A stretch of 10,917 nucleotides of DNA from Chloroflexota bacterium. GTDB taxonomy: Bacteria; Chloroflexota; Limnocylindria; Limnocylindrales; CSP1-4. Each line of letters starts with the position of its first letter. The first letter of the stretch is position 1. The notes beneath the pieces were generated by a model, which saw only the letters and a program-made list of their open reading frames with translations, ran no database searches and was not told the DNA's origin. This document shows, one piece after another, positions 3,311 to 10,335 of this stretch. The DNA is taken from assembly GCA_021786915.1 (NCBI GenBank), contig JAJYMP010000580.1:1-10917 (forward strand), given 5' to 3'. Made by a program: the position numbers and the translations under genes.

Positions 3311-4543
3311 TCAGGCGCCCACGTCGAACGTGGGCGCGCGGCGCGGGACGAGCACCCAGGTGAACAGCGCCGACGATGCGGTGATCGCGATCGAGACCGC
3401 AATCGCCACGCTCGGGCTGATCGTCACCAGCTGGCCGCCGATGGCCGCGCCGATCGGGTAGCCGAGGAAGTTGAGCGACATCGACACCGCGAACGCGCGG
3501 CCGAGCCAGGCCGGGTCGGTTCGGCGCTGGCGGAGCGTGAACAGCGCGACGTCCATCGGGCCGTTGATCAGTCCCTGGAGCGCGACGGTCATGATGATCA
3601 CCGCGAGAGTGGGGGAGACGAGCACGAACACGCCGGTGAACGCATAGCCCGCCATGCCCAGCGTCAGGATGGTGCGCTCGAGCCCGGCGATCCGCCATCG
3701 GCCGGCCGCCAGCGCGCCGATCCCGCCGGTCACGCCCATGATCGCCCACACGCCGCCCACCACGCTGCCGCCGAGGTGCAGGCTGGTGAGCAGCAGCACC
3801 GGCAGCACGATCGAGATGATCCCGCCACCCAGGTTGAGGACCGCCAGGCCCACGCCGAGTCCCAGCAGCGTCCGGTTCCGCAGGGTGTAGCGCAGGCCCT
3901 CCCAGGCGTTGACCAGCAGGCGGCCCTCGGACGACGTCGAGCCGGGCGGATCCTTCACGCCGATGATGACCACCGCCGCCACGGCGTACAGCGACGCGAT
4001 GATGAGGAGCGCCGCAGGGCCGCCCAGCGTCTGCACGAGCACGCCCGCGGCCGGCGGCCCGATGAGGGTGGCCACGACGTACCCGTTGGAGTCAATGGCG
4101 TTCACGCGCTCCCAGAGGCGGCGCGGCACGATGAGCGGGAACAGCGTGCGCAGCCCCACGTTGGACAGCGGGTTCGTCAGCCCGGTCAGGGCGGTGATCA
4201 GCAGCAGGAGCGCCGGCGTGAGCTGGTTCGTGAACGAGAGGATCGCGACCAGGACCAGTGACGCGAAGGCCGTCGCCTGGTCGATGACGATGAGGCGGGC
4301 ACGGCCGTGCCGGTCCAGCAGTGCGCCCACGATCGGCGCGACGAGCAGCCCCGGCGTGACGCTCGCGAACGTGACGAGGCCGGCCAGCCCTGGCGAGTGG
4401 AACCGCTCGAGGGTGAACAGCACGAGCGCGACGCCCAGCATGCTCGCCGCAATCCGACTGATCACCATGCCCAGCAGGATCCGCCCCATCGACGGGATGC
4501 TGAGGACAGCGCGATACGAGGGCGGGAGGTCCTGGGACTGCAC
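3311..4543 (-). CDS. MFS permease (DHA3-like efflux transporter)
   Basis: A 410-residue, strongly hydrophobic protein with alternating membrane segments, close to the usual 400 residues and consistent with 12 helices. The major-facilitator motif A between helices 2 and 3 is clear: GALLDRHGRA at residues 73-82, with the conserved Asp-Arg and Gly-Arg. The overall pattern, including SRIAASMLGVALVLFTLER in helix 1 and TNPLSNVGLRTLFP near mid-protein, resembles DHA3/MefA-type proton-coupled exporters. The substrate is unknown. The start is GTG at 4543-4541; in-frame stops lie directly upstream, so this is the first possible start. It lacks a properly spaced Shine-Dalgarno sequence but has a -10 box 6 bases before the GTG, suggesting leaderless translation. 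It is transcribed alone and convergently to the DUF952 cluster. Confidence 0.94.
   Translation of the reverse strand: MQSQDLPPSYRAVLSIPSMGRILLGMVISRIAASMLGVALVLFTLERFHSPGLAGLVTFASVTPGLLVAPIVGALLDRHGRARLIVIDQATAFASLVLVAILSFTNQLTPALLLLITALTGLTNPLSNVGLRTLFPLIVPRRLWERVNAIDSNGYVVATLIGPPAAGVLVQTLGGPAALLIIASLYAVAAVVIIGVKDPPGSTSSEGRLLVNAWEGLRYTLRNRTLLGLGVGLAVLNLGGGIISIVLPVLLLTSLHLGGSVVGGVWAIMGVTGGIGALAAGRWRIAGLERTILTLGMAGYAFTGVFVLVSPTLAVIIMTVALQGLINGPMDVALFTLRQRRTDPAWLGRAFAVSMSLNFLGYPIGAAIGGQLVTISPSVAIAVSIAITASSALFTWVLVPRRAPTFDVGA
3315..3337. terminator. Perfect 10-bp inverted repeat at a convergent gene junction (candidate bidirectional terminator)
   Basis: GCGCCCACGT (3315-3324) and ACGTGGGCGC (3328-3337) are exact reverse complements around a CGA loop. 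The repeat lies 44 bases after the DUF952 stop and overlaps the last codons of the MFS gene on the other strand. No T-run follows on either strand, so intrinsic termination of the classical kind is not proven. Strong G+C hairpins without U-tracts are, however, often proposed as transcription stops in high-GC genomes. Confidence 0.5.
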
Positions 4544-5416: not shown

Positions 5417-6274
5417 TCACGGGCGGGTCGCGGTCACCGAGAACGACAGGGGGAGGCGGCCCCGCTCGGCGGGATGGACGTCGCGGTGGCCGCCGTACCA
5501 GTCCACCGGGTGCTCGGTCACGGTCTCCACCCGCAGTCCCGAGCCGAGCAGCGCCGTAACGACCTCGCCCAGCGTCCACGCCCTCGCGAACTTCCACGCC
5601 TGCTCATCGTCGGGGAGCGAGAGGCGCTCGATGTAGGCCGGGGACCAGCCGCGCGACGCCTCGGGCCCCGCGAAGTAGTCGTACTCGGTCAGCAGCCAGC
5701 CGCCCTCTCCGTCGCCGTCGAAGAGCCACTCGGCGGGGTGCCCCTCGAACAGCACCAGCCGGCCCCCGGGGCGAGGCAGGCGCGCGAGGCCGGCCGCCCA
5801 TGCGTCCAGGTCCTGCACCCACATGATCGACCCGCGCCCGGTGTAGACGAGGTCGGCGGTGGCGTCGAGCTCGTGGGGCAGGTCCAGCACGTCGGCCCGG
5901 ACCCACGTCGCCGGGGCGCCGACCGCCGCCGCCAGCCGCCTCGCGAGGTCGAGCATCCGGGGGCTGAAGTCGATGCCGGTAACCCGCGCCGCGCCCGCCA
6001 GCCACAGCGAGAGCGTGTCCTCACCGCCCGCGCACTGGACGTGGATGGCGTGGTCGCAGCGGGCGTGCAGGTCGCCGATCAGGTCGAGCTCGACCGGCAG
6101 GAGCGAGGGCCGCCCAGCGCGAAGGCGTTCGATCGAGCCCCCCAGCCGACGTTCGTAGTCCTCGGCGGCCTCGTCCCACGCGACCTGGTTGGCGGCATGC
6201 ATCCGGCGCGGATCGGCAGCCTCGTCGGGCGTGGCCGGGCGCACGTCCGGCTGGTCGCCGGGGGAGGGAATCAT
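5417..6274 (-). CDS. Class I SAM-dependent methyltransferase
   Basis: A 285-residue protein. The Rossmann methyltransferase core starts after NQVAWDEAAEDYERR (29-43). The SAM-binding loop is HVQCAGGEDTLSLWLAGA (78-95), a variant of the glycine-rich motif I in the style of HLQCxxGxDTLS methyltransferases. The acidic residue ending strand 2 is Asp102 in GIDFSPRMLDLAR, and RADVLDLP (126-133) and the motif LPRPGGRLVLFEGHP (166-180) follow. Substrate is unknown; the relatives include many small-molecule methyltransferases. The first 24 residues are Pro/Asp-rich and lie outside the fold, so M25 (6202) is an alternative start. ATG 6274 is kept because a -10 box lies 6 bases upstream of it. It is the first gene of a two-gene - strand unit with the downstream hypothetical protein. 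Confidence 0.93.
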   Translation of the reverse strand: MIPSPGDQPDVRPATPDEAADPRRMHAANQVAWDEAAEDYERRLGGSIERLRAGRPSLLPVELDLIGDLHARCDHAIHVQCAGGEDTLSLWLAGAARVTGIDFSPRMLDLARRLAAAVGAPATWVRADVLDLPHELDATADLVYTGRGSIMWVQDLDAWAAGLARLPRPGGRLVLFEGHPAEWLFDGDGEGGWLLTEYDYFAGPEASRGWSPAYIERLSLPDDEQAWKFARAWTLGEVVTALLGSGLRVETVTEHPVDWYGGHRDVHPAERGRLPLSFSVTATRP

Positions 6275-6951: not shown

Positions 6952-7641
6952 ATGGCGGTCAGTGTGTCGCGGCGGCTGCCCGACGACGCCAGCCTGACGC
7001 AGGCGGTGATGATCGTCGCGCTGTGCGCCGCGCTGAACGTGTTCGGCGGCTTCACGGCGAAGGCCCTGGCCATCCCGATCGTCTACCTCGACACCATCGG
7101 CACCTTCGTCGCGGCCGTGCTCCTCGGCCCGTGGTGGGGCGCGGCCGCCGGCGTCACCTACAACCTCACGGCGTCGCTGACGTTCGACCCGGGCACGTGG
7201 CCGTTCGCCATCGTGAGCGTCGTGGTCGCCCTGCTGTGGGGCTACGGGATCCGCGGGTTCGGCATGGGCCGCTCGCCGATCACGTTCTTCGCGCTCGGCC
7301 TGGTCGTGGCCGTGGTCTCCGCGATCGTGGCGTCGCCCATTGTCCTGTTCCTCTACGGCGGGGCCACGGGGAGCGCCTCGGACGCGATCACGTTCGCCGC
7401 GCAGCTGGCCGGGCTCGACCAGGGACCGGCCGTGTTCCTCAGCAACATCGAGAGCAACCTGGCGGACAAGGTCCTCACCGGGTCGGTGGGGCTCGCCCTC
7501 GTCCGAGCGCTGCCCGGGACGAGCGTTGCCGGCCTGCGCCTGCCCGCGCAGTCTCGGTTCGGCACCCTCGCGATGACGAGCGGCGGCCTCGCCATCGGGG
7601 TGGCGCTGGTGCTCGTGGCGATGGCCCTGCCCCACGGCTGA
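6952..7641 (+). CDS. ECF transporter S component (substrate-binding membrane subunit)
   Basis: A 229-residue hydrophobic protein with about six membrane segments (roughly 16-33, 38-60, 63-77, 85-103, 110-135 and 207-227). The block YLDTIGTFVAAVLLGPWWGA (45-64) followed by AGVTYNL resembles S components in which LGPxxGAxxG connects two helices. The glycine-rich GPWWG turn and the size (about 200 residues) fit the ECF S-subunit fold. The family's job is to bind a vitamin or similar micronutrient in the membrane and topple with EcfT. I could not match the sequence to RibU, BioY, ThiT, YkoE, QueT or CbrT signatures, so the substrate is unassigned. ATG 6952 is preceded by CGGAGGA at 6941-6947; the same frame is open far upstream but without family-like sequence. 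It is the first gene of an S-ATPase-T operon, 19 bases before the ATPase gene. Confidence 0.84.
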   Translation: MAVSVSRRLPDDASLTQAVMIVALCAALNVFGGFTAKALAIPIVYLDTIGTFVAAVLLGPWWGAAAGVTYNLTASLTFDPGTWPFAIVSVVVALLWGYGIRGFGMGRSPITFFALGLVVAVVSAIVASPIVLFLYGGATGSASDAITFAAQLAGLDQGPAVFLSNIESNLADKVLTGSVGLALVRALPGTSVAGLRLPAQSRFGTLAMTSGGLAIGVALVLVAMALPHG

Positions 7642-7660: not shown

Positions 7661-9445
7661 GTGGCTGAGCCGCGCGGGCCCGTCATCGCCCTGGCCGGCT
7701 TCGGCTTCCGCCACGCCGGGTCGGATCGGCCGGCTCTGGCCGACGTTACGCTCGAGGTTCGGTCCGGCGAGTACCTGGGCGTCCTGGGCGCCACGGGCGC
7801 GGGTGCCACGACGCTCCTGACCGCGCTCGACGGGGTGGTGCCGCAGCTGGTCCGCGGCCAGGCGAGCGGGACCATCTCGGTCCTCGGCCGCGACCCGCGC
7901 ACCGTTCCCGTGCCCGACCAGGCGGGCCAGGTGGGCCTCGTGTTCGACGACCCCGGGCTCGCGACCACCCAGGCGACCGTCGCCGACGAGGTCGCGTTCG
8001 GGCTCGAGAACCTCGGCGTGCAGCGTGAGGAGATGGACGCGCGGATCGCCGCCGCGCTGCTCGCGGTGGGCCTGGCCGGGTTCGAGGGCCGTGATCCGGC
8101 CACGCTCTCCGGCGGAGAGCAGCAGCGGCTCGCGATCGGCTGTGCGCTCGTGACCGGGCCGTCGATCCTGGTCCTCGACGAGCCCTCGGCGAACCTCGAC
8201 CCGGCTGGGCGCCGGTCGCTGTACGGCATCGTGCGGCGGCTGAACCGCGAGCACGGCGTGACGGTGGTCGTGGCGGACCAGGACCCGGCCGGGATCGCAC
8301 GGGATGCGACACGGGTCGTGGTGCTCGACGGCGGCCGGGTGGTGGCCGATGGAGCCCCGGAGGTCGTCCTCGGCTCGCCCGGGACCCTTCGCCTGCACGG
8401 CGTCCGAGCAACCGATGCCGCCGCGCTGGGCGCGGCGCTGGGGCTGGTGCCGCCGATCCCCACCGCGGGGCCGGACCTTGCCCGGCGCCTGAAGCTGCGG
8501 AGCGCAGCAGGCCCGGCGCGAGAGAGGGCCCCCGAATCCGCGGCCCACGCCGTCCTCGACGTCCGCGACGTCACCTACAGCTACCCGGGCTCGGACCGCC
8601 CGGCCGTCGCCGGGATCACGTTGCGGGCGGCCCGAGGCGAGGTGCTCGGCATCGTCGGTGCCAACGGGAGCGGCAAGACCACCCTGGGTCGGCTCGTGAA
8701 CGGCCTGATCCGGCCTGGGCATGGCCGGATCAGCGTGGACGGGATGGACACGGCCGCCCACCCGGTCCGAACGCTGGCTGCGCACGTCGGGTCTGTCTTC
8801 CAGGACCCGGCCCACCAGCTGTTCGCGGGCACCGTGGCCGAGGAGCTGGCCCTCGGACCCAGGGCGCTCGGCATGTCCGAGGCGCGGATCGGCGAACGGG
8901 TGCGCGAGCTGGCGCAGGCGCTCGAGATCGACGGGCTGCTCACCCGCCACCCGCTCCGACTGGGCCGCGCCGAGCGCAAGCTCGTGGCGCTCGCGGCGGT
9001 GCTCGCGATGCGCCCGCGCGTGCTGGTGCTCGACGAGCCCACGACGGGTGCGGACCTGCGACTGGCGGGGGTCATCGAGGGGAGGATCCGGGCCGCGGCG
9101 GGGGAGGAGGGGACGGCGGTGCTGGTCGCCTCCCATGACATGGGGTTCCTCGGCCGCGTGGCCTCGCGGCTGGTCGTGATGGACATGGGCCGGGTGGTCG
9201 CTGACGGCCCCATCCGATCGGTCTTCGCCGACGTGCAGCTGCTGGCGCTCGCGGGGCTGGAGCCGCCGGAGGTCACCCGTGTCGCGCTCGCGCTTGCCCC
9301 GCGCGGGCCGGAGCCGTGGCCCCCGGTGTCGATCGACGAGGCCGTGGCCGTGCTGCGGGCGGCGGGTCCGGAGCCGGCGCCGAGACCCCGTGAAGCGGAT
9401 TCGGCCGACGCGCCGGCCACGACCGCTGACGGGGGGCCGCCATGA
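7661..9445 (+). CDS. Fused ECF transporter ATPase (two ABC domains, EcfA-EcfA' type) with asymmetric ATP sites
   Basis: A 594-residue protein with two tandem ABC domains (about 8-240 and 298-530) and a Pro/Ala-rich tail. Domain 1: degenerate Walker A GATGAGATT (43-51, Ala49 where Lys is expected), Asp96 at the Q-loop position in VFDDP, intact signature LSGGEQ (149-154), intact Walker B ILVLDEP (169-175), and Gln207 instead of the switch His (VADQD). Domain 2: canonical Walker A GANGSGKTT (333-341), Q-loop Gln381 in VFQDP, Walker B VLVLDEP (454-460) and His492 in ASHD, but the signature position reads LGRAERK (434-440) instead of LSGGE. The domains energise the S and T membrane subunits; the fused S-AA'-T order resembles ykoEDC. 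The GTG start has only a weak GCAGG ahead of it. The gene overlaps ecfT by 4 bases (ATGA). Confidence 0.95.
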   Translation: MAEPRGPVIALAGFGFRHAGSDRPALADVTLEVRSGEYLGVLGATGAGATTLLTALDGVVPQLVRGQASGTISVLGRDPRTVPVPDQAGQVGLVFDDPGLATTQATVADEVAFGLENLGVQREEMDARIAAALLAVGLAGFEGRDPATLSGGEQQRLAIGCALVTGPSILVLDEPSANLDPAGRRSLYGIVRRLNREHGVTVVVADQDPAGIARDATRVVVLDGGRVVADGAPEVVLGSPGTLRLHGVRATDAAALGAALGLVPPIPTAGPDLARRLKLRSAAGPARERAPESAAHAVLDVRDVTYSYPGSDRPAVAGITLRAARGEVLGIVGANGSGKTTLGRLVNGLIRPGHGRISVDGMDTAAHPVRTLAAHVGSVFQDPAHQLFAGTVAEELALGPRALGMSEARIGERVRELAQALEIDGLLTRHPLRLGRAERKLVALAAVLAMRPRVLVLDEPTTGADLRLAGVIEGRIRAAAGEEGTAVLVASHDMGFLGRVASRLVVMDMGRVVADGPIRSVFADVQLLALAGLEPPEVTRVALALAPRGPEPWPPVSIDEAVAVLRAAGPEPAPRPREADSADAPATTADGGPP

Positions 9446-10335
9446 CCGTCACCGCCTCGCCGTTCGCGTACGCGCATGGTTCGTCCTGGCTCCACCGGCG
9501 GAGCGCCGTGGCGAAGGTGGCGTGGCTGGCGGCCGCGCTGGCGTTCGCGCTGGCCACGCTCCACCCGGTCCCGCTGCTGCTCGTGTTCGCGGGGGGCGTC
9601 GCGCTGGCCGTCTCGGCTGGCGTCGGGGGGCGGATGTGGCGGGCCATGCGCCTGCTCGGGCCCCTGGCCGCGTCGATCGTGGTGCTGCAGGCGGCGGCGC
9701 CGGGCGTGTGCGGCGTCGGCTGCACGGAGGTCGCGCGAGTGGGGACGGTGACGATCACCGCCGAGGCGCTCGGACGGGGGGTCGCCTACGTCTCGCGCCT
9801 GCTGGCGATCGAGTCGGCGGGGGTCGTGCTGCTGGTGACCACCCGCCCCGCGGACCTCTTCGGCGCGCTCCGGCGGCTGCGTGTGCCGCACCCCGTGGCC
9901 CTGCTGCTCGCGACCACGATGGAGCTCGTCCCGCTGCTCCAGCGCGAGCTCGCGGTCGTGCTCGATGCCCAGCGTGCGCGAGGGATGCGGGCGAGCGGCG
10001 CACGCGCCCTGGTGCCTGCGCTCCTGCCCGTGTTCGTGTCCGCCTTCGAGCGTGTGGGCCGGCTCGCCATCTCGATGGAGGCCCGGGGCTACGGTGCGTC
10101 TGCCGCCCGCACATCGTATCGGACAGACGCGTTCAGCCGGAGCGACCGGGCCCTCGCGTGGGCGGGCGTCGTCGCGGGCGTCGCGGGCGTCGCCACGGGC
10201 ACGATCCTGTGGGGCCCGGCGTCGGTGCCCGCGCTCGTGGTGCCGGCCTGGGCGGCCCTCGTGATCGTCGGGGCGGCCGGCCTCGCGTTCGCTGGCCTGG
10301 TCGCAGCGACGCTGGTGGCGGTGGCGCGGGCTTAG
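9442..10335 (+). CDS. ecfT: EcfT, energy-coupling transmembrane subunit of an ECF importer
   Basis: A 297-residue membrane protein whose ATG overlaps the ATPase stop codon (ATGA), implying coupled translation. The N-terminus has the family pattern SSWLHRRSAVAKVAWL (14-29) before the first helices. TTRPADLFGALRRLRVPHP (133-151) precedes the coupling region, where the two diagnostic Ala-Arg-Gly motifs occur: DAQRARG (175-181) and SMEARG (211-216). In characterised EcfT proteins these arginines dock into grooves of the ATPase domains. Two further membrane segments (about 238-260 and 262-295) follow. A CGVGC pair of cysteines (90-94) sits in a probable extracytoplasmic loop and is unusual. EcfT binds the S component of the same operon and the fused ATPase, making a dedicated (group I) ECF transporter. 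Confidence 0.95.
   Translation: MTVTASPFAYAHGSSWLHRRSAVAKVAWLAAALAFALATLHPVPLLLVFAGGVALAVSAGVGGRMWRAMRLLGPLAASIVVLQAAAPGVCGVGCTEVARVGTVTITAEALGRGVAYVSRLLAIESAGVVLLVTTRPADLFGALRRLRVPHPVALLLATTMELVPLLQRELAVVLDAQRARGMRASGARALVPALLPVFVSAFERVGRLAISMEARGYGASAARTSYRTDAFSRSDRALAWAGVVAGVAGVATGTILWGPASVPALVVPAWAALVIVGAAGLAFAGLVAATLVAVARA

Follow-up and report, generated by a model that had tools for sequence, protein, structure and literature searches.

The window, that is the whole stretch of 10,917 nucleotides analysed here, carries an operon for a dedicated ECF importer that probably runs on an asymmetric ATPase, in which site B would be the sole hydrolytic site and site A would act as a hinge. To judge from sequence motifs, site A is strongly degenerate and site B fully consensus. 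Among the ECF ATPases surveyed, this one appears to be the most extreme case of an asymmetry that is widespread and belongs mostly to dedicated modules.

An ECF importer operon

The S gene (6952..7641, +) encodes a CD3073-like, substrate-binding membrane protein, assigned from its NF045596 score together with its fold and neighbourhood. The score (119.7 bits) lies under the curated cut-off of 180, and a Pfam search of the product gave no match. An S-type gene adjoins ecfA in 5/5 class relatives checked. The AlphaFold model of the S component (pLDDT 89.2) matched RibU, FolT and ThiT in Foldseek with probabilities up to 1.00, but with E values of 0.016 or worse. The fold was rejected as a guide to the substrate, since its matches to RibU, FolT, ThiT and a biotin S component are all weak. 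No riboswitch that would name the substrate was detected within the window at Rfam gathering thresholds, and CD3073 was not mentioned among the matches listed from the open-licence literature on ECF transporters.

The S gene is followed by a gene for a fused EcfA-EcfA' ATPase of 594 aa (7661..9445, +, GTG start), which passed the cut-offs of both TIGR04520 (353.6 bits, cut-off 315) and TIGR04521 (351 bits, cut-off 330). In Pfam the chain contains ABC_tran twice, without a membrane domain family. The next gene, ecfT (9442..10335, +; CbiQ family, PF02361, 94.5 bits), begins within the last 4 bases of ecfA, its start and the ecfA stop sharing ATGA. Its product contains two copies of Ala-Arg-Gly (QRARGM and MEARGY), a sequence described as the coupling motif of T units (PMC3246461), and scored 51.9 bits against TIGR02454, the cobalt CbiQ equivalog, below the cut-off of 111.8. 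The S-A-T gene order of the window recurs in five other loci (L022, L023, L030, L031 and L032), and an S-A-A'-T order with the same S family as in the window was found in L244 and L247. The operon is thus predicted to encode S-EcfAA'-T, an ECF importer module of the dedicated type (group I).

MFS and methyltransferase genes flank the operon (3311-4543 and 5417-6274 (-)). Compared with locus L002, the MFS protein (compared over 207 residues, as the locus ends within it) and the methyltransferase are 95% identical, and S, A and T are just 55, 71 and 72% identical. The corresponding values for L001 are 89% for the MFS protein (89 residues), 92% for the methyltransferase and 88, 75 and 78% for S, A and T. 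Replacement or transfer may have given the ECF operon a history separate from that of its flanks. Further upstream lie a gene for a TPP-dependent (acetolactate-synthase-like) enzyme (705-2930, +), whose up to ~190 leading Ala/Glu/Asp-rich residues have no Pfam domain and whose true start may be further in, and a gene for an ordinary DUF520 protein (139-630, +), which we take to be of the YajQ type.

Motifs and pairing of the two ATP sites

Site A is built from the Walker A, Walker B, Q-loop and H-loop of domain 1 and from signature 2, and site B from the corresponding elements of domain 2 and from signature 1. In site A, Walker A1 (GATGAGATT, 7787..7813, +) has Ala49 in place of the lysine, Q-loop 1 (VFDDPG) has Asp96 in place of Gln (7946..7948, +) and H-loop 1 (VVVADQD) has Gln207 in place of His (8279..8281, +). 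Signature 2 is degenerate (LGRAERKL, 8960..8983, +; Gly435, Arg436 and Ala437, LGRAE being residues 434-438). The A-loop position of domain 1, placed from the alignment, is His18 in the window (7712..7714, +) and Tyr in 231/248 fused proteins outside the window's clade. Retained in domain 1 are the P-loop glycines, Thr50/Thr51 and an intact Walker B1 (ILVLDEP, 8165..8185, +) with Asp173 and the catalytic Glu174. All elements of site B listed here are consensus: Walker A2 (GANGSGKTT, 8657..8683, +) with Lys339, Q-loop 2 (VFQDP) with Gln381 (8801..8803, +), Walker B2 (VLVLDEP, 9020..9040, +) with Asp458 and Glu459, H-loop 2 (ASHD) with His492 (9134..9136, +), and signature 1 (LSGGEQQR, 8105..8128, +).

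The residues given in the preliminary description (Ala49, Asp96, Gln207, LSGGE, Lys339, LGRAE and the intact motifs of domain 2) were all numbered exactly. Its summary of one consensus and one fully degenerate site holds for site B and goes too far for site A, which keeps its Walker B1 and P-loop glycines; it also missed His18 and the family-wide scale of site A erosion. Loss of the catalytic Walker B Glu has been described as a hallmark of degenerate nucleotide sites (PMC7544095), and the window lacks this hallmark, Glu174 being present. It has two other features of such systems, one complete consensus site (B) and a changed partner signature (LGRAE).

The AlphaFold model of the fused chain (pLDDT 93.9, pTM 0.91) is an NBD pair that aligns over its whole length with closed head-to-tail ABC dimers, among them the ATP-bound fused DppD (8wdb_D; 484 residues, 2.8 A); some apo-labelled chains align nearly equally well (8avy). 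Domain 1 resembles EcfA1-type chains and domain 2 EcfA2/CbiO-type chains. The model supports a head-to-tail closure of the two domains in which Walker A1 would face signature 2. The earlier proposal that such pairing unites the damaged motifs within a single composite site, leaving its partner with intact motifs, is supported by the whole-chain match of the predicted structure to closed dimers.

Conservation within the clade

Of 4721 matches in a protein search, in which the window's own protein ranked first, the best 120 were used. The clade was defined as the first 39 listed proteins, i.e. the window and its 38 nearest listed homologues, with at least 58% identity. Position 49 is Ala in 10 of them and Val in 29, so that Lys is missing from all 39. 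Asp96 and Arg436 are present in 39/39, the first Gly of signature 2 is changed in 39/39, and at position 437 Gly is replaced by Ala, Ser or Val, again in 39/39. The H-loop 1 position is variable (His kept in 1/39, gone in 38/39) and the A-loop position is His in 37/39. Gly43, Gly48 and Ser/Thr50 of the P-loop are kept in all clade rows, Asp173 in 39/39 and the catalytic Glu174 in 34/39. Ser-Gly-Gly of signature 1 is found in 39/39, and Lys339, Gln381, Asp458, Glu459 and His492 occur in all rows, save Lys339 in P0039. Site B is consensus in 38/39, the exception P0039 having a frame-shifted-looking stretch. Two further residues, Glu110 and Glu395, each in the stretch after a Q-loop, are invariant in an alignment of 87 sequences and would have a role at the reported EcfT docking stretch.

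None of the 38 nearest listed homologues has Lys49 with LSGGE in domain 2, and a strain-specific defect or a sequencing error is ruled out by the agreement of 39/39 proteins. Mean identity, calculated over 37 of the 39 clade proteins, is 71.3% for domain 1 and 70.2% for domain 2. With six coding sequences (15 pairs), Nei-Gojobori dN ranged over 0.09-0.23 in domain 1 and 0.12-0.32 in domain 2, with dS of 0.56-0.98. dN was lower than dS for both domains in 15/15 pairs, and domain 1 had the higher dN of the two domains in 3/15. Because domain 1 is as conserved as domain 2 and its dN is well below dS, it is not decaying. The asymmetric pattern is thus conserved and under purifying selection. The earlier claim of selection for a one-site motor rather than decay is sustained as regards conservation and purifying selection; the one-site motor itself is a mechanistic proposal, treated below.

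A protein lacking Lys49 occurs in at least 7 of the 177 genomes searched in the class of one relative. Four genomes of the group (G001, G009, G010 and G011) also encode another fused ECF ATPase, in which both Walker A motifs contain Lys.

Survey of fused ECF ATPases

For a wider survey, the sequences of the protein search were complemented by those of genomes searched in one class and in three samples at phylum level; two of these genome searches covered largely identical genomes. As a guard against best-hit bias, 60 lower-ranked places were added, of which 2 partial ones were dropped and 58 used. Four rows of another ABC type were excluded, as were L001, L002, L093 and L026 (repeats or partial). 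The 303 rows were reduced to 287 by a 95% identity filter, and eight positions were scored per site.

Site A was off consensus at 688/2296 positions and site B at 3/2296, the rows having been chosen by similarity to two queries, so that the proportions here and below do not describe ECF transporters as a whole. At least one site A departure was found in 262/287 proteins; the remaining 25/287 had none, Thr being accepted for the signature Ser. Departures among the 287 concerned Lys in 46, Gln in 64, Glu in 12 and His in 105, and, in signature 2, Ser in 145, the first Gly in 255 and the second Gly in 61. There were 0 departures at the Walker B1 Asp173, which is invariant in all 287. In site A, wear is thus most frequent in signature 2, followed by His, Gln and finally the Walker A Lys. 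This lysine is retained in 241/248 sampled fused proteins outside the clade, and the special trait of the clade is its added loss.

Several natural variants stand apart. The only site B departures in the 287 besides P0039 are in L188 and L189, whose signature 1 reads LSAG and LSSG. Another site A loss, Q-loop 1 Gln to Gly (VFGDP) with His to Gln, is found in L143, L144, L145 and L147. In L084, L085 and L095 the catalytic Glu of Walker B1 is Gln (LDQP); Glu to Gln in Walker B is the laboratory change used to block hydrolysis, and here it occurs in natural fused ECF ATPases.

On a FastTree tree of all 303 rows, built with the motif columns removed, site A required at least 67 changes and site B at least 3. 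The site A changes were 2 for K, 8 for Q, 6 for E, 13 for H and 15, 13 and 10 for the signature positions. An IQ-TREE analysis covered 60 chosen rows; the 22 proteins with Ala or Val at position 49 grouped in one clade (99/97). Four proteins with Arg for the Walker A1 Lys formed a second (99/97). Loss of Lys took at least two changes on this tree, one of them in P0113, which is placed elsewhere. The joins of the Ala/Val and Arg clades with P0040-P0043, which keep Lys and bear Asp96, lack resolution. A strict ladder of losses, with Gln first and then Lys and His as on the FastTree tree, was set aside, since IQ-TREE leaves these forks open.

Unfused relatives and gene context

The unfused set comprised 22 loci and yielded 19 A/A' pairs; L229, L232 and L242 proved fused. 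In 19/19 pairs the signature of the domain-2-type subunit is non-consensus, and site B (K, Q, D, E and H of domain 2 with signature 1) is intact. The domain-1-type subunit keeps Lys in 19/19, with Gln changed to Asp in 11 and to Glu in 1, and His changed to Gln in 11. Six loci from genomes of the same class as the 177-genome search (L244-L247, L250 and L251) have a signature 2 of the form (L/I)SFP(L/M)RKL, with Lys and His kept and Gln changed to Asp. Gene fusion as the cause of the asymmetry is ruled out by these 19 unfused pairs. The preliminary description had also suggested a distinct ECF subtype; as an isolated case this is contradicted by site A departures in 262/287 fused and 19/19 unfused systems.

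The 30 loci of 61 genomes with the highest scores to the EcfA2 model served as a contrast set. It gave 29 pairs (L279 gave none), and 28/29 have two consensus sites, L276 having Ser for one Gln. Gene context was compared for ten loci per set. A TrpP-family membrane protein (Pfam) is encoded directly 5' of the eroded pair in 9/10 and is taken as the putative S component, and a CbiQ gene follows the pair in all 8 tested; in L296 there is no gene of at least 110 aa directly before the pair. Because of the TrpP-family gene before and the CbiQ gene after, the eroded pairs are read as dedicated modules, although these loci are little varied, all being TrpP-like and of one S family. NCBIfam gave no match for the S-type genes beside the nine eroded pairs. 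In the consensus set, the gene directly 5' of the pair is that of ribosomal protein L17 in 9/10, with no S gene at that place, in keeping with a shared module. L305 (the same pair as L268) has a TrpP-family gene before the pair, yet two consensus sites. The asymmetry thus seems to track dedicated modules more than fusion, with exceptions. As an observation in its own right, the TrpP family, named in Pfam for tryptophan transporters, provides the S-type gene of the one-sidedly eroded unfused modules L287-L295.

Comparison with known systems

The shared-module ECF transporters (group II EcfA1-EcfA2-T, such as L. delbrueckii ECF-FolT2 and CbrT) resemble the window's module in their EcfA1/EcfA2-type domains and in an EcfT with two Ala-Arg-Gly motifs. 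They differ by their two consensus sites (28/29 contrast pairs), whereas site A of the window is without Lys, Gln, His and signature. In the L. delbrueckii module, replacing the catalytic Glu by Gln in just one of the two ATPases, whichever it was, was reported to impair growth on cobalamin severely; the ATPase activity of the mutant motors did not rise above background, and they transported no folate (PMC10368641). Because either Glu change disables that motor, a natural one-site ECF would work differently. YkoEDC-type dedicated systems share with the window an S, a fused AA' and a T in one operon (PMC5037267); among the sampled fused proteins outside the clade, 241/248 retain the Walker A1 Lys that the clade has lost.

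Among exporters, degenerate sites are well documented (PMC7756269). According to the same source, Pdr5 also joins a consensus and a degenerate site in one chain, with the Walker A Lys of NBD1 replaced and the His and the NBD2 signature changed. It differs as an exporter with its own membrane domains, and its substitutions are Lys to Cys and Glu to Asn (PMC7756269), unlike those of the window's clade, where Lys is Ala or Val and the window keeps the catalytic Glu. The NBD-TMD-NBD-TMD layout of the PDR proteins is absent from the window's chain (two ABC_tran, no membrane family), and the Pdr5-like pattern would represent convergence. ABCG5/ABCG8 combines a changed signature with Walker A Lys to Arg in its degenerate site (PMC7756269), and Lys to Arg also occurs in the side group P0044, P0045, P0054 and P0067. 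With its Glu kept, the window's pattern resembles the one reported for ABCG5/G8, although that system is a heterodimeric exporter and the present one a predicted single-chain importer module. RbsA/NupO-type ATPases likewise belong to importers and have fused NBDs and a degenerate site whose Walker A is without Lys (PMC11466899). There, however, Lys is absent from the second domain, in the window from the first, and RbsA/NupO is a type II importer with a binding protein, not an ECF system (PMC11466899). ECF systems are outside the scope of PMC11466899, and no description of a degenerate ATP site in ECF transporters was found among the matches listed from the open-licence literature.

Proposed mechanism and the role of site A

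In the proposed mechanism, site B alone would hydrolyse, with one ATP per cycle, and site A would be empty or would hold a slowly exchanging nucleotide. Site A would serve as a hinge, keeping the two domains in partial contact as site B cycles between open and closed. The motion of site B would move the coupling helices of EcfT, and the S component would thereby be released and recaptured. The window's site A would be the end state of an erosion that affects the same site across many ECF ATPases, independent of fusion. Several points weigh against a one-site motor. The shared-module ECF fails when either catalytic Glu is changed (PMC10368641), so that no ECF is known to function with a single site, the intact Walker B1 leaves room for weak hydrolysis in site A, and consensus sites persist both in 25/287 fused proteins without a site A departure and in L305, despite its S-type gene.

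As for what site A does, a quite plausible possibility, to which we would give somewhat less than an even chance, is an empty pseudo-site, domain 1 having a structural or coupling function and lending only its LSGGE and its EcfT groove. Such a site agrees with the combined loss of Lys, the A-loop Tyr, Gln, His and the signature, with the Ser-Gly-Gly of signature 1 in 39/39 and with Glu110, invariant in 87 sequences. The invariance of Asp173 in 287 proteins and the presence of Glu174 in 34/39 would be odd without a Mg-nucleotide. Alternatively, site A may be a permanent clamp that binds ATP tightly without hydrolysis, the nucleotide being held by Walker B and the glycines, a reading that we rate a little lower. 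Permanent clamps are known from the degenerate sites of exporters. Gly43, Gly48, Ser/Thr50 and Asp173 in all clade rows, with Glu174 in 34/39, are consistent with bound nucleotide, and the degenerate sites of Pdr5 and ABCG5/G8 likewise have the Walker A Lys replaced, by Cys or Arg (PMC7756269). Against a clamp, the A-loop Tyr is gone (His in 37/39), Lys is replaced by Ala or Val and the signature is unable to engage normally, all of which would make for weak binding.

A motor with two working sites, in which site A also hydrolyses through unconventional residues, is improbable. Walker B1 is intact and Arg436 could replace the lost lysine, but His is lost in 38/39, and Gln and the first signature Gly in 39/39, and the same elements have been lost repeatedly in the wider family. 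It is equally doubtful that dedicated ECF importers, unlike shared-module ECFs, are largely one-site and that, in the clade, the phosphate-binding charge has been relocated to the other side of the dimer, Arg436 of the partner's signature replacing the Walker A Lys. Arg436 is present in 41/41 proteins with Ala/Val49 in the survey of 287, and in the five Arg49 proteins position 436 is Met in three, Leu in one and Lys in one. The link between the loss of Lys49 and Arg436 is just suggestive, because the Ala/Val proteins form a single clade (22 rows tested) and a basic residue at 436 also occurs in 103/241 Lys49 proteins. Finally, random decay, sequencing error or a pseudogene has next to no probability and is refuted by conservation: the loss of Glu174 in 5/39 clade members would fit continuing decay, but the same residues recur in 39 proteins, dN is far below dS, the S-A-T order is kept in 5/5 relatives and Lys-bearing fused paralogues exist in four genomes of the group.

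Together, these data point to a natural family with one perfect and one stripped ATP site, in which the use of one or two ATP per cycle would become testable. Its relatives span the range from two consensus sites to a site A with little beyond Walker B. Site asymmetry, familiar from exporters, also exists in ECF importers, independent of gene fusion.
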